Shown here piece by piece: positions 12,678 through 38,885 of a stretch of DNA of 64,000 nucleotides. Position 1 is the stretch's first letter. Each line of letters begins with the position of its first letter. This DNA comes from Nitrospinaceae bacterium (lineage in GTDB: Bacteria; Nitrospinota; Nitrospinia; Nitrospinales; VA-1): the NCBI GenBank assembly GCA_021604505.1, contig BQJC01000001.1, forward strand, positions 1,447,501 to 1,511,500, read 5' to 3'. Made by a program: the position numbers and the translations under genes. Under the pieces are notes generated by a model that was not told the DNA's origin, ran no database searches, and saw only the letters and a program-made list of their open reading frames with translations.

Positions 12678-14798
12678 ATGGACAGTTCTCGTAGCCTGCA
12701 AAAAAAATCGACTTTTTTTACAGTAATTTTCTCCCTGTTTTTGATCTATGGCCTGGTACACCTCGCACCCGAGCCTTTTTCATCTTCTTCACCGTTCTCT
12801 TCCCTGACCGGCCCGGTTAAAGCTTATGCTCAGGAAGAGGATGAATTCGAAGAGTTTGACGAATTTGAAGAATTTGAAGAAGAGGAAGGCGGTGAAGAGG
12901 AAGGTGGAGAGGAAGAATCTGCAGAAGGCGAAGAAGGCGCCGAAGGTGAAGAAGAGGAAGACCTGTCCTACTTGACGGATATAGGCCCTGCCGCTGAGCA
13001 CGAATTTGAGCCTTATTCCTTCCTGGGAATGAGCAACCGGAAATTTACCTGGACAGCGGCCCAATTACATATCCTGTTCGCCTCTTTCATCCTGGGCTGT
13101 CCGATGTTCGTGGTCATCATGGAGGTCATGGGGGCGCGCCGCACTCAGGGAGTCCGTAAAGCCATCATTGTTTCAAATGTCTTTCTTGGCGTTCTGATCG
13201 GCGTGGTCATTGGTATCACCGGAGAGATCATCGTAGGAATCCATCACGGGGTTCTCTATGGCTTATGGGCTTGCGCCTTTGGCGCCCTGATCGTCAGTTT
13301 CCTGAATTATTTCCACCGCTTGATGGACGTCAAGGCTTCCACTGTGGTGGGCGCTGTTTTCGGAACGGTGATCGCCATTCCTCTCACTCCCGTTGAGCAC
13401 ATTGAAACATCCGGGATCATTCTGGCAATCATAAACGGCGCGGTCGGCGGCATCCTTTCCAACATGATCATGTTTGCCAAGTCGGACTTTAAGTTCGAGC
13501 GCCTGGCCCACGAAATCACCAAAGTCATTGGCATGTGTTACAGCTTCACCGCCCTCACCGGTGGGTTGTTCCTGTTTGTGATGATCGTTCTCTACCAGGA
13601 TTTTATTACCTATCTGGTACAAAGTTTTCCGGTGCTATTCATGGTGGGTTATCCCACCCTGTTCATCCTGGAAACCATCGTGATGTACATCTACGTGTAC
13701 TCCTGGGACCCGCTCAACCAGCAAAACAAAAAAGGCCGGCACATCATCTGCGGGGTTGTCTTGAATATTCTGGGGCTTACTTTGCTGTGCGCCCTGGACG
13801 GTCCCGCCACCTATATGCAAACGCCTCCGAAACCGCTCGATCAACTCATGGCCATCAGTGAATGGGACCGGATTGCTACCTCCACCTGGATGCCGCTCAA
13901 TTATCACCGTCTGGTGGGTAATGGCACCTTTGGGGGGTATATGGTGGGAATCATCGGCGCTTACATGTATCTGTGGTCGACTAAAAAGGAAGAAAAGGAA
14001 TACTACGACTGGGTCGGTTACATGGGCAACATCATCGGCGTAGGCATCATGATTCCCCTGCCTGCAATGGGTTATATTTTTGTCCGCGAAATTTATGAAT
14101 ACGACGCCACCATCGGCATGTACATCATGTCCGACAGGGAATCCATGTTCATGCTCGTTCAAGGGTTGCTGGTAGGAACCATGTTCAGCGCCAGTAACAT
14201 CTATATGTGGGTGAGTATGAAGCGCATCGAGAATGCGCAGCGCTTTTTCCCGGCCATGAAATTTGGATTCATACTGATCGTCATATCCGCGGCGATATGG
14301 TTCACTCCACGGCGGTTCTTCGCAACGATGCTGCCCGAACCGGGAATGAACCCGGACATGGTGCTTCCTGACAACCTGGCGTTCCTGGCATTGATGATTT
14401 CAAAGAATACGGCGGCATTCGCACTGGTGACGGTGACGTTTATCAACTACATCTTCTATACCATCGCCACCAAAACCGGGAAGGTGCATTACGGCAAAAT
14501 CAATCCTTTAGGGATTTACGTTCTCATTTTCCTCGGATTCGCCGACATCTGGCTGATGAGCTGGATGGGGACCATCCGCGAACTCTCGCGAATGAACTGG
14601 CACATATATAAAGTCTTTAAAGACGTGACCCCGGAAAAATTTGCACCGACTCTGGCGGAATCCGGGTTTCATGTCACCACCATTGTGTGGACGTTCTTTA
14701 TTATCATGACGGCGACGATCTGGATCGCCATCAAATACCCAAAGACCAAGAAAAAAGCGGAAATACCGACTTCGGCAGCGCCGCAAATGGCGGAATAA
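12678..14798 (+). CDS. Cytochrome bd-like oxidase homologue with acidic periplasmic N-terminus
   Basis: This is a 706-residue polytopic protein. A signal peptide ends at AYA-Q (residues 49-52). An extreme acidic tract follows (residues 53-95, 29 of 43 Asp/Glu, with repeated EEF), then about 14 membrane spans. The first span carries WTAAQLHILFASFILGCP with His131, which matches the haem-ligand helix of CydA-like proteins. The canonical quinol loop motif GRQPW is absent and the protein is longer than CydA. This fits the bd-like oxidases of Nitrospira/Nitrospina and anammox bacteria, whose exact reaction is debated. The membrane cytochrome c 17 bp downstream suggests electron exchange with cytochrome c, not quinol. 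Confidence 0.72.
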   Translation: MDSSRSLQKKSTFFTVIFSLFLIYGLVHLAPEPFSSSSPFSSLTGPVKAYAQEEDEFEEFDEFEEFEEEEGGEEEGGEEESAEGEEGAEGEEEEDLSYLTDIGPAAEHEFEPYSFLGMSNRKFTWTAAQLHILFASFILGCPMFVVIMEVMGARRTQGVRKAIIVSNVFLGVLIGVVIGITGEIIVGIHHGVLYGLWACAFGALIVSFLNYFHRLMDVKASTVVGAVFGTVIAIPLTPVEHIETSGIILAIINGAVGGILSNMIMFAKSDFKFERLAHEITKVIGMCYSFTALTGGLFLFVMIVLYQDFITYLVQSFPVLFMVGYPTLFILETIVMYIYVYSWDPLNQQNKKGRHIICGVVLNILGLTLLCALDGPATYMQTPPKPLDQLMAISEWDRIATSTWMPLNYHRLVGNGTFGGYMVGIIGAYMYLWSTKKEEKEYYDWVGYMGNIIGVGIMIPLPAMGYIFVREIYEYDATIGMYIMSDRESMFMLVQGLLVGTMFSASNIYMWVSMKRIENAQRFFPAMKFGFILIVISAAIWFTPRRFFATMLPEPGMNPDMVLPDNLAFLALMISKNTAAFALVTVTFINYIFYTIATKTGKVHYGKINPLGIYVLIFLGFADIWLMSWMGTIRELSRMNWHIYKVFKDVTPEKFAPTLAESGFHVTTIVWTFFIIMTATIWIAIKYPKTKKKAEIPTSAAPQMAE

Positions 14799-14815
14799 CC
14801 ATTTAGGAGTTAGTA

Positions 14816-16111
14816 ATGCAGGAAAAATCGTTCATGCAAAAAGCGGCTAAAATTGTACCCATTTCACTGGTTCTGGCGGCTGTTTTCTGGTTTGGTGGAG
14901 CAGCCATCGGCTTGACGGACGCAGTGATTCAGCGGTTGGCTGGAATCACGATAGTGGTCATGATCTATGCCCTTCTATTGGCCATTCCCAAATCGGAATT
15001 TAAAGAGAAAAACTTCTTTCAGAATTTAAAATTTAAAATTCCGGTCATAGCAATCATTTCGGTCATTATATGGTATGTTGCCGGGTATTTTGGTTTTCCC
15101 ATCTGGTGGCAGATCGAATTCGTCGCGTTTGCTCTGGTGGGCCTGACTTATTTTGTGCTTCTGGATTTACGGGCCATGAAACCTGAAAAAAGTCAGGTGC
15201 AAACCACGATCCGGCTGATAGGAACCTATGCGATTGCTTCCGTTCTGTTTATTGTTATCACCGCCCAGCTTCCGCAATTTGATCCCGCTTTCGAAATAGA
15301 AAAACTCAACCGACCCCCGGTTAAATTATCCGGACTGGCAGGCCCTGAAGTCATCGCCGCGGGCAGGGAAGTTTTTGAAGCCAACAAATGTTTCAACTGC
15401 CATAAAGTTTTCTGGGAAGGCAACTCCGATCGTGGCCCTAATCTGGGCACCAAGCAAATCGGCCTGTATTCGGACGATTACATCAAAGAGCAGATTCTGG
15501 AACCCCGCAAAACGCAATCGCCAGGTTTTGAGGATGCCAAATCCAAGAAAGCCATGCCAACCTACTACGGGGAAGATATCAGTGACGACGAAATGACGGC
15601 CCTGGTGGCTTATTTGAAGACGATGCGCGACCCCACCAACATTCCCGTTGAAGGTAAATTCCCGAACCAATGGACCTGGTGGGACGATCCGCAAATCCTT
15701 GAGGAGGGGAAAGTGGTTTTTGAAGGGGCCGAACCCGCGACTGAGGGTCTCAATTGCGCCGTATGTCATGGCAAGGATGGCATCCCCATGATGACCGGGG
15801 CGATGGATTTTAGAAATGGAGAACAGCCCGATACCAAAAAAATGCCGGACCATCTTCCCGATGTTAAACTCAAAGACTGGCCGGACGGCTTGTGGTACAA
15901 GCGGGTCACGCGCGGCGTCACGGGAACCCCAATGGCGCCCTGGGGCACGATCTTTCCGCATCTCTATCTGTGGAAGGCCGAAGCCTATGCCCGCACCTTT
16001 CACGATCCGCTGGATAAACGCACCGAAAAACGGCCCGTTCCTCCGGTTCCAACCAAAGAGGACATAGAAAAGTGGAAAGCCGAAGAATTATTCCTCGATC
16101 CGCTGCTTTAA
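14816..16111 (+). CDS. Membrane-anchored di-haem cytochrome c
   Basis: The 431-residue protein has five N-terminal membrane helices (about 14-34, 42-58, 75-94, 100-118 and 132-150). Two periplasmic cytochrome c domains follow. Haem motifs are CFNCH (192-196) and CAVCH (314-318); likely axial methionines are Met247 (KKAMPTY) and Met373 (TPMAPW). It lies 17 bp behind the bd-like gene, and a GGAGT ribosome site precedes its ATG. It probably forms a complex with that protein, passing electrons to or from a soluble carrier. It is not a CcoP homologue by its membrane part. The operon ends at the terminator just downstream. Confidence 0.85.
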   Translation: MQEKSFMQKAAKIVPISLVLAAVFWFGGAAIGLTDAVIQRLAGITIVVMIYALLLAIPKSEFKEKNFFQNLKFKIPVIAIISVIIWYVAGYFGFPIWWQIEFVAFALVGLTYFVLLDLRAMKPEKSQVQTTIRLIGTYAIASVLFIVITAQLPQFDPAFEIEKLNRPPVKLSGLAGPEVIAAGREVFEANKCFNCHKVFWEGNSDRGPNLGTKQIGLYSDDYIKEQILEPRKTQSPGFEDAKSKKAMPTYYGEDISDDEMTALVAYLKTMRDPTNIPVEGKFPNQWTWWDDPQILEEGKVVFEGAEPATEGLNCAVCHGKDGIPMMTGAMDFRNGEQPDTKKMPDHLPDVKLKDWPDGLWYKRVTRGVTGTPMAPWGTIFPHLYLWKAEAYARTFHDPLDKRTEKRPVPPVPTKEDIEKWKAEELFLDPLL

Positions 16112-16126
16112 CAAAGTTTTAAATAC

Positions 16127-16158
16127 GGCCGGTCCCTTTTCAGGGGCCGGCTTTTTTT
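16127..16158 (+). terminator. Strong rho-independent terminator
   Basis: A GC-rich stem (GCCGGTCCC with GGGGCCGGC, one G-U pair) has a short loop and is followed by seven T. It starts 16 bases after the cytochrome stop codon and closes the bd-like/cytochrome c operon. Confidence 0.9.
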
Positions 16159-16239: not shown

Positions 16240-16719
16240 ATGAGTAAAATTGACGATCTGATCAAAGAGAATCTGACCCCGGACGGAGAAGTGCTGACCC
16301 TGCGGGAAAAATTTTTGGGAGTTCGCGGCTTGATGCGATTGGCGGAATGCCCGGCCCTGGCCACGGTCAAGAAACTGGTTCTGCCGGCAAATCAGGCGAG
16401 CGACGAAGGGGCGGAGGCTTTGGCAAATTCCCCTTACCTGGGCAATATGGAGCACCTCAATTTGAACCACAATGAAATCGGTGATGAGGGCGCAATCGCT
16501 ATTGCCAATTCCGACAAATTCCCGAAGCTCACTGATTTGACCATGTTCGGAAATGCCATTGGCGATGAGGGAGCCAAGGCGTTTGCCAATTCTCCACACA
16601 GCAAAAAATACGTCAAACTGGATCTCTACAAAAACCAGTTCGGCAACGACGGCTACCGGGCCTTGACGGAGTCAGAAAACTTGAAAAATTGCGAGGAACT
16701 GGAAATCTACCGCGATTAA
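16240..16719 (+). CDS. Leucine-rich-repeat protein (ribonuclease-inhibitor type)
   Basis: This 159-residue protein has no signal peptide and about four LRRs of the RNase-inhibitor subtype, about 28 residues each (VKKLVLPANQASDEGAEALA, MEHLNLNHNEIGDEGAIAIA, LTDLTMFGNAIGDEGAKAFA, VKLDLYKNQFGNDGYRAL). Such repeats give a curved protein-binding surface. An AGGAGA site precedes the ATG. It is monocistronic, between the respiratory terminator and convergent bolA. The partner is unknown. Confidence 0.85.
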   Translation: MSKIDDLIKENLTPDGEVLTLREKFLGVRGLMRLAECPALATVKKLVLPANQASDEGAEALANSPYLGNMEHLNLNHNEIGDEGAIAIANSDKFPKLTDLTMFGNAIGDEGAKAFANSPHSKKYVKLDLYKNQFGNDGYRALTESENLKNCEELEIYRD

Positions 16720-37878: not shown

Positions 37879-38712
37879 TCATTCTTTATAATTAAAAGAT
37901 TTTTTCTTTTTGTTGTAAGGCATGGACTTCGATTTGAACAGGAGTTTGCCCTTTTTCTCTGCAAAGTCCTCAATCACAAGAGGTTTCTTTTCTGACATCG
38001 CCACCTCTTTTTTACGATCTTTGACTTTCTCGAGCTTTTGATCCTCATTATCTTCGTTCCAGTACTTGTCCTTTTCATGAACTTTCAACTTTCGCTCTTC
38101 AAAGTTGAATTTGTACTTGTCATGCACATCCGGTTTAAAAGGCGTCTTGGGATGGGTATGGCAACGTGTACAAACGTTGGCATAATCCCATCTTTGCCCG
38201 TACTTTTCGATATCGGCCTTTGTGAAATCCCCCTTGGTGTTTTTCATCACTACCCGAAGCTGGGCTCCACCGGCAACCGAATGGCACATCTCACAGCCAA
38301 CCTGCTCCAGATTGGGTTCATCCGGGTCAATGGATGTACTGATATCCTTGCCTTTTTTAGTCTTGGTCCCAGCCGGTTTAAATCCCCCTTTTTGGCGGTA
38401 ACCGGTGGTGTGACAGCGCAGACACAAGGGAGTGGTGGTATAATCTTTTTGCGGATCGAGTTTAACCCTTTTTTTAGCTTCTTCACGCACTCCGGGTTTC
38501 AAGAGGTTATAGGTATTCCCGTGGGGAGATTTTACCCACGCCTGATAATAGGCGTCATGACAGCTTCCGTTACATTTGACCGCACCTACATAAGACGGAC
38601 TCTTGGGTATTTTCTTTTTCTTTTTCTTTTTTGCATCCGCTTCTCCCGCCGCGCCTACGATCAAGGCAAAGGAGAGCACAATCAAGCTCAAAAATTTAAA
38701 GGTCTTCCCCAT
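37879..38712 (-). CDS. Periplasmic tetrahaem cytochrome c (c554-like)
   Basis: This 277-residue exported protein has a signal peptide ending near AGEADA (about residue 27), a lysine-rich stretch, then YVGAVKCNGSCHDAYYQAWV. The c554-like fold usually has CXXCH here, but this site is CX3CH (Cys47, Cys51, His52). Three standard motifs follow: CLRCH (97-101), CEMCH (140-144) and CTRCH (181-185). The last 90 residues are very rich in Lys, Glu and Asp and carry no haem. ATG 38712 follows an excellent GGAGGA. It is monocistronic. It probably shuttles electrons in the periplasm. Confidence 0.85.
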   Translation of the reverse strand: MGKTFKFLSLIVLSFALIVGAAGEADAKKKKKKKIPKSPSYVGAVKCNGSCHDAYYQAWVKSPHGNTYNLLKPGVREEAKKRVKLDPQKDYTTTPLCLRCHTTGYRQKGGFKPAGTKTKKGKDISTSIDPDEPNLEQVGCEMCHSVAGGAQLRVVMKNTKGDFTKADIEKYGQRWDYANVCTRCHTHPKTPFKPDVHDKYKFNFEERKLKVHEKDKYWNEDNEDQKLEKVKDRKKEVAMSEKKPLVIEDFAEKKGKLLFKSKSMPYNKKKKSFNYKE

Positions 38713-38885
38713 TATTTCCTCCAATCCACAAACAAGAAATTTTTTCCTTTTAAAGGTCAACCTCCGAAGAATAATATAATTCCCCAGGGGGGTCAACCAC
38801 AAATTAAGGCAAGTAATTGTAAAGACTTCCGGCGATTTTCCATTTCGTCACACAATAGATTTTCATCTTAAGGAAAGCGGTTCCC

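Follow-up and report, generated by a model that had tools for sequence, protein, structure and literature searches.

The window analysed here is a stretch of 64,000 nucleotides (G000:C1:1447501-1511500) from the 3.64 Mb genome of a member of the Nitrospinaceae, hereafter the source genome (G000). Two open reading frames separated by a 17 bp gap encode a bd-like membrane protein and a membrane cytochrome c (Table 1), and the hairpin and T run downstream of them agree with the preliminary description of this DNA, in which the pair had been given a terminator of its own. The surroundings are housekeeping genes encoding RlmN, a glycosyltransferase, a lipid A N-terminal-domain protein, a leucine-rich-repeat (LRR) protein and Lpd, and NXR genes do not adjoin the pair. 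In nearly every genome of the order to which the source genome belongs, the gene for the small LRR protein (16240-16719) comes next after the pair.

Table 1 Features of the bd-like/cytochrome c gene pair, in window positions
Feature	Position	Strand	Basis
bd-like (CydA superfamily, OR-N kind) membrane protein, 706 aa	12678..14798	+	translation; Pfam PF01654; fold matches
Predicted signal peptide, residues 1-51, cleaved after AYA	12678..12830	+	hydrophobic stretch, then AxA immediately before acidic tail in orthologues
Hyperacidic periplasmic tail (predicted), residues 52-95	12831..12962	+	residue count
H131, equivalent of E. coli CydA H19, active-site haem ligand	13068..13070	+	aligned column, invariant
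Predicted four-membrane-helix insert, residues 155-268, with conserved H189, H190, H213	13140..13481	+	AF2 model; relatives
E332, equivalent of E. coli E107	13671..13673	+	alignment
H410, equivalent of E. coli H186, haem b558 ligand	13905..13907	+	alignment
M573 to K576: K576 at the M393 column, M573 one helical turn off	14394..14405	+	alignment; both invariant in OR-N rows
W629-M630 at the position of haem b595 ligand E445; E445 lost, M630 invariant	14562..14567	+	alignment
H642, candidate extra haem ligand; invariant in OR-N rows, not in canonical CydA	14601..14603	+	alignment
AGGAG ribosome-binding site of the cytochrome gene	14805..14809	+	sequence reading
Membrane dihaem cytochrome c subunit, 431 aa	14816..16111	+	Pfam PF00034 7.4e-17; adjacency in orthologues
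Five predicted membrane helices of the cytochrome, residues 6-150	14831..15265	+	AF2 model
Haem c site 1 CFNCH (192-196), likely Met ligand M247	15389..15403	+	conservation
Haem c site 2 CAVCH (314-318), likely Met ligand M373	15755..15769	+	conservation
Intrinsic-terminator-like hairpin	16127..16152	+	11 pairs (8 G-C), 4-nt loop, then T run

Fold, haem ligands and cytochrome partner

The Pfam CydA profile matches the bd-like protein weakly and over residues 262-455 alone (E 2.4e-6, 26.8 bits against a cut-off of 26.2). In a fold search with the AF2 model (core pTM 0.79, pLDDT 77.7) all nine matches of probability 1.00 were cytochrome bd subunit I, TM-scores by target length reached 0.60, and no haem-copper oxidase (COX1 fold) was among the 50 matches listed, so that the search lends no support to a haem-copper-like nature of the protein. 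Searching the PDB with a profile built from the bd-like alignment returned low-complexity acidic matches only, and no PF02322 match to a CydB partner was found in the source genome.

In E. coli CydA, H19 is the ligand of the active-site haem, H186 and M393 bind haem b558 and E445 binds haem b595, with K252, E257 and a GRQPW motif forming the canonical quinol site. Alignment of the bd-like protein with canonical CydA shows that H19, H186 and E107 are retained, the H19-type histidine lying in AAQLHILFASFILG, and the CydA-type haem helix reported in the preliminary description is thus kept. The absence of GRQPW noted there likewise holds, and with I and S in the columns of K252 and E257 the alignment recovers no canonical quinol site. 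In the C-terminal half the register is uncertain because identity to canonical CydA is low; as aligned, the M393 column holds K576 one turn from an invariant Met and the E445 column holds W629, and the loss of E445 together with a lysine in place of M393 leaves the second active-site haem in doubt. Across 27 OR-N sequences, some of them only about 30% identical, H131, H355, H410, H642, E332, M573, K576 and M630 are invariant, H642 having no counterpart in canonical CydA. From the pattern of loop charges in the model we infer that the tail and the haem ligands lie on the periplasmic side. The protein conforms to the published description of the bd-like (OR-N) class, in which the quinol site is absent, the haem histidines are present and extra membrane helices take the place of the Q-loop (PMC3578206).

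The downstream gene encodes a membrane cytochrome c with two CxxCH motifs and five predicted membrane helices (6-30, 35-56, 67-91, 96-119 and 127-150 in the AF2 model), in line with the five-helix dihaem cytochrome of the preliminary description. At the first haem site C192, C195, H196 and M247 are invariant in six divergent relatives, and the second site together with M373 is at least 90% conserved in 18 rows. The global confidence of the cytochrome model is low (pTM 0.44) and its fold matches are suggestive of dihaem c4-like domains. A dihaem gene lies directly downstream in 25/25 scored orthologues and is adjacent throughout in further loci with enough downstream sequence; the partner, like the acidic tail, is universal in the order.

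Acidic tail, insert and distribution of the pair

The mature N-terminus of the bd-like protein contains 29 Asp/Glu among 43 residues (53-95), the same count as first reported, with no Lys, Arg, His or Cys. When all six frames of the window were scanned in open frames of at least 90 codons this was the sole stretch with at least 16 acidic residues in 30, and the tail is thus no chance effect of composition. It is present in all 41 distinct complete orthologue N-termini, where the best 30 residues contain a minimum of 16, a median of 23 and a maximum of 28 acidic residues, and a single one of these stretches includes any K, R or H. A stricter set of 29 distinct tails, which are 24-59 aa long with a median acidic share of 71% and 3 basic residues between them, was collected with a narrow pattern that misses some orthologues and clips the tail of L008, and the count of 41 was used for presence. 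Of the two forms of conservation raised in the preliminary description, that of charge was borne out while length, like sequence, proved variable. As length and sequence drift and the charge stays, selection for charge is the simplest interpretation.

Between CydA-core helices 1 and 2 the model contains an insert that the preliminary description had missed, with predicted membrane helices at residues 159-186, 191-209, 218-236 and 244-265; its three histidines are conserved. The insert was found in 55 of the 77 genomes searched, all 55 belonging to this order and always in this gene, and in the genomes of the order without it the bd-like gene is fragmentary or missing. None of the six window-type relatives from outside the order, at 46-54% identity, has the insert. 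It has no Pfam match, and neither a separate gene in the 77 genomes nor a known Pfam domain corresponding to it was found. Most simply the insert would be a structural module or docking surface, with which the paralogue encoded in the NXR cluster may associate.

That paralogue (G000:C4:299980-301785) is of the same family and shares the invariant histidines, but it is 31% identical to the window protein, lacks the insert, has an N-terminus that is merely mildly acidic and is flanked by genes for a dihaem cytochrome, a monohaem cytochrome and an alternative NxrC. The bd-like protein or its paralogue is carried by 57/60 relatives searched, and a profile of the bd-like protein has matches in 72/77 genomes of the phylum. 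The gene is near-universal in the order, with 75-89% identity to the window protein in the rows aligned. Records of the 55 named loci with a close relative carry the labels Nitrospina, Nitrospinaceae, Nitrospinia, Nitrospinota or Nitrospinae, the one exception being a Nitrospirae record; a scan of viral contigs found no further relatives. Bd-like proteins elsewhere in the phylum include two with a fused C-terminal haem c motif (L039:5709-8258, 849 aa; L128:634-3006, 790 aa).

The window-type proteins come out as a single group in a maximum-likelihood tree (support 100/100), and the bd-like protein groups with those of NXR clusters, apart from canonical CydA. A tailed but insert-free protein from G056 joins the clade of the order (90/92), a placement that the program marks as potentially a long-branch join. 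The likely order of gain is pairing with cytochrome c, then the acidic tail, then the insert. Untailed relatives retain the rest of the complex, and in three of them the bd-like gene lies directly downstream of what appears, judged from sequence, to be a molybdenum oxidoreductase operon with an FeS subunit, which suggests that the module may serve as electron acceptor of such oxidoreductases. These loci are from other Nitrospinota (L037:6451-11850, L122:488-6060 and L123:1413-6943); at L123 apparent sulfur genes, read by eye, are also near the bd-like gene.

Other oxidases and cytochromes c in the order

Full-length COX1 is present in 5/64 genomes of the order (G000, G008, G039, G042, G048) and CydB also in 5/64 (G008, G037, G040, G048, G050). 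Neither was found in 56/64 genomes, of which some 21 reach 90% completeness, in a tally made by hand from tables, with short COX1 fragments (e.g. G012, G053) left out and with incomplete assemblies able to hide genes. Because these 56 genomes show neither enzyme, the bd-like protein and its NXR-cluster paralogue are the main candidates for O2 reductase. The literature on cbb3 in the phylum is divided: it is reported from all Nitrospinota nitrite oxidisers of oxygen-deficient zones examined in one study (PMC11373643), which disagrees with our survey, and from only a few Nitrospinia in another (PMC10839748), which agrees with it. According to PMC8115632 the enzyme behind the O2 affinity of Nitrospinae has yet to be identified.

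The source genome encodes a cbb3 in addition to exactly two CydA-family proteins. Its cbb3 is a fused protein of 940 aa with three CxxCH motifs (G000:C3:177946-179211; L150:2920-5742) resembling that described for Nitrospina gracilis, and most relatives are without it. Many Nitrospinaceae, some of them lacking a complete haem-copper oxidase, also encode a short protein with a weak match that is confined to the first third of COX1; such ORFs occur in the G000:C1:816956 region, at L149:2430-3362 (310 aa) and in similar form in many genomes of the order. PF14711, tried as an NXR marker, had no match anywhere in the phylum and was uninformative.

The source genome encodes many small cytochromes c, mostly basic. 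Small monohaem cytochromes starting CPQ.R(K/A)T, with a net charge of up to +15, are present in several copies per Nitrospinaceae genome (L165 and L168 in the source genome, L198-L200 in G037) and are candidate soluble electron carriers. The window itself contains a c554-type tetrahaem cytochrome (37879-38802, - strand; three CxxCH and one CxxxCH, pI 9.7, lysine-rich stretches), proposed in the preliminary description as a partner of the tail; with so many small basic cytochromes c in the genome it has no special claim to that role. A link between the tail and basic small cytochromes across genomes was not borne out: in a small sample, with signal peptides removed by a fixed rule, no significant difference in their charge separated tailed from untailed genomes (p = 0.14), and the two small cytochromes examined from the tailed genome G056 are both acidic.

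Proposed function and alternatives

The best reading of the pair is a complex that takes electrons from cytochrome c. We judge the chances about evenly balanced that the pair, as an OR-N member of the cytochrome bd superfamily, reduces O2 with electrons fed by cytochrome c, a proposition drawn from the CydA fold, the lost quinol site, the kept haem ligands, the constant dihaem pairing and the scarcity of alternative oxidases. Cytochrome c as donor of the bd-like class is not a new proposal, OR-N having been described as conserved in Nitrospinota and probably cytochrome-c-linked (PMC10839748), and we found no biochemistry for any OR-N enzyme in the literature. Counting against O2 reduction is the cbb3 of the source genome; as proposed for the pair, cbb3 (CcoN/CcoO/CcoP) is a cytochrome-c-linked membrane oxidase with c-haem subunits, but its catalytic fold differs. 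Nor is OR-N membership proof of O2 reduction, as the NXR cluster of anaerobic anammox bacteria also carries a relative (PMC3578206).

In the proposed scheme nitrite electrons would leave periplasmic NXR at high potential and pass to small cytochromes c in solution, a large number of which are basic. These would be captured and concentrated by the acidic tail, taken to be disordered and held at the periplasmic surface by its attachment immediately ahead of helix 1. Electrons would then move through the two c haems of the partner to b-type haems of the bd-like subunit that lie close to its periplasmic side, and here O2 would be reduced with cytoplasmic protons, replacing a haem-copper oxidase. 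A docking role of the tail is plausible given the basic small cytochromes of the source genome and the analogy with yeast Qcr6, the hinge protein of complex III, whose disordered residues 41-73, about 90% of them Glu or Asp, bind cytochrome c (PMC11413003). Qcr6 is likewise a strongly acidic site where basic cytochrome c docks, but it is unrelated to the tail and a separate subunit, and the likeness is one of analogy only. We consider it distinctly unlikely that the tail instead binds metal (Ca or Cu) or reflects salt adaptation: the lineage is largely marine and Kustd1711, a strongly acidic cytochrome of the anammox NXR cluster, has its haem potential tuned by bound Ca, yet the authors of that work suggest that the negative charge serves protein contacts (PMC11791136), the window tail is free of His and Cys, and untailed relatives keep the remainder of the complex.

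The pair might also run backwards, with electrons from cytochrome c driven by proton motive force to reduce quinone in the manner of alternative complex III. Such reverse electron transport has been proposed for bd-like proteins on account of the anaerobic anammox NXR cluster (PMC3578206), and from the apparent molybdenum-enzyme operons upstream of the pair at L037, L122 and L123 electrons could reach either quinone or O2. Here it seems improbable, since every recognisable quinol-binding residue is lost, the gene cluster that matches the anammox arrangement is that of the paralogue and most genomes of the order would be left with no O2 reductase save that paralogue. If the window protein instead formed a CydAA'-type heterodimer with its paralogue from the NXR cluster (G000:C4), joined by the dihaem cytochrome as a third subunit and with neither protein working alone, this would accord with the published hypothesis of OR-N1 plus OR-N2 (PMC10839748, PMC12342949), with the presence of just these two CydA-family proteins in the source genome and with their alignment across the whole core. 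We nevertheless think it unlikely, the genes being unlinked and each having cytochrome partners of its own.

The cytochrome-c-fed O2 reductase that we favour would belong to a class already described. With the Nitrospira, Nitrospina and anammox bd-like proteins the window protein shares a divergent CydA with core haem histidines and no quinol site, extra helices replacing the Q-loop and c-type cytochrome neighbours, the family being conserved in Nitrospinota (PMC10839748). With canonical cytochrome bd subunit I (CydA, qOR) it has the fold and the H19, H186 and E107 equivalents in common and differs in lacking the quinol site, E445 and CydB partner. In the OR-N literature that we found there is no mention of the acidic tail, the four-helix insert or the fixed two-gene unit, which is no proof of novelty. 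New here are the tail in all 41 N-termini, the constant dihaem adjacency, the insert confined to the order and the survey of oxidases in which 56/64 genomes have neither COX1 nor CydB.

Nitrospinota are major marine nitrite oxidisers living down to very low O2, and after our survey most genomes of the order are left with two candidates for the O2 reductase. The pair is a leading candidate for the O2-respiring enzyme of most Nitrospina-group nitrite oxidisers. The fuller proposal, that the general terminal oxidase still missing from marine Nitrospinota nitrite oxidisers is this pair, a bd-superfamily enzyme which would oxidise cytochrome c, gather its soluble cytochrome donors with a built-in disordered acidic tether and have gained its own four-helix membrane module, is put forward tentatively, and the constant architecture of tail, insert and dihaem partner makes the window protein directly testable. 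If the pair is an oxidase, cytochrome-c-driven O2 reduction outside the haem-copper family would carry much of marine nitrite oxidation.
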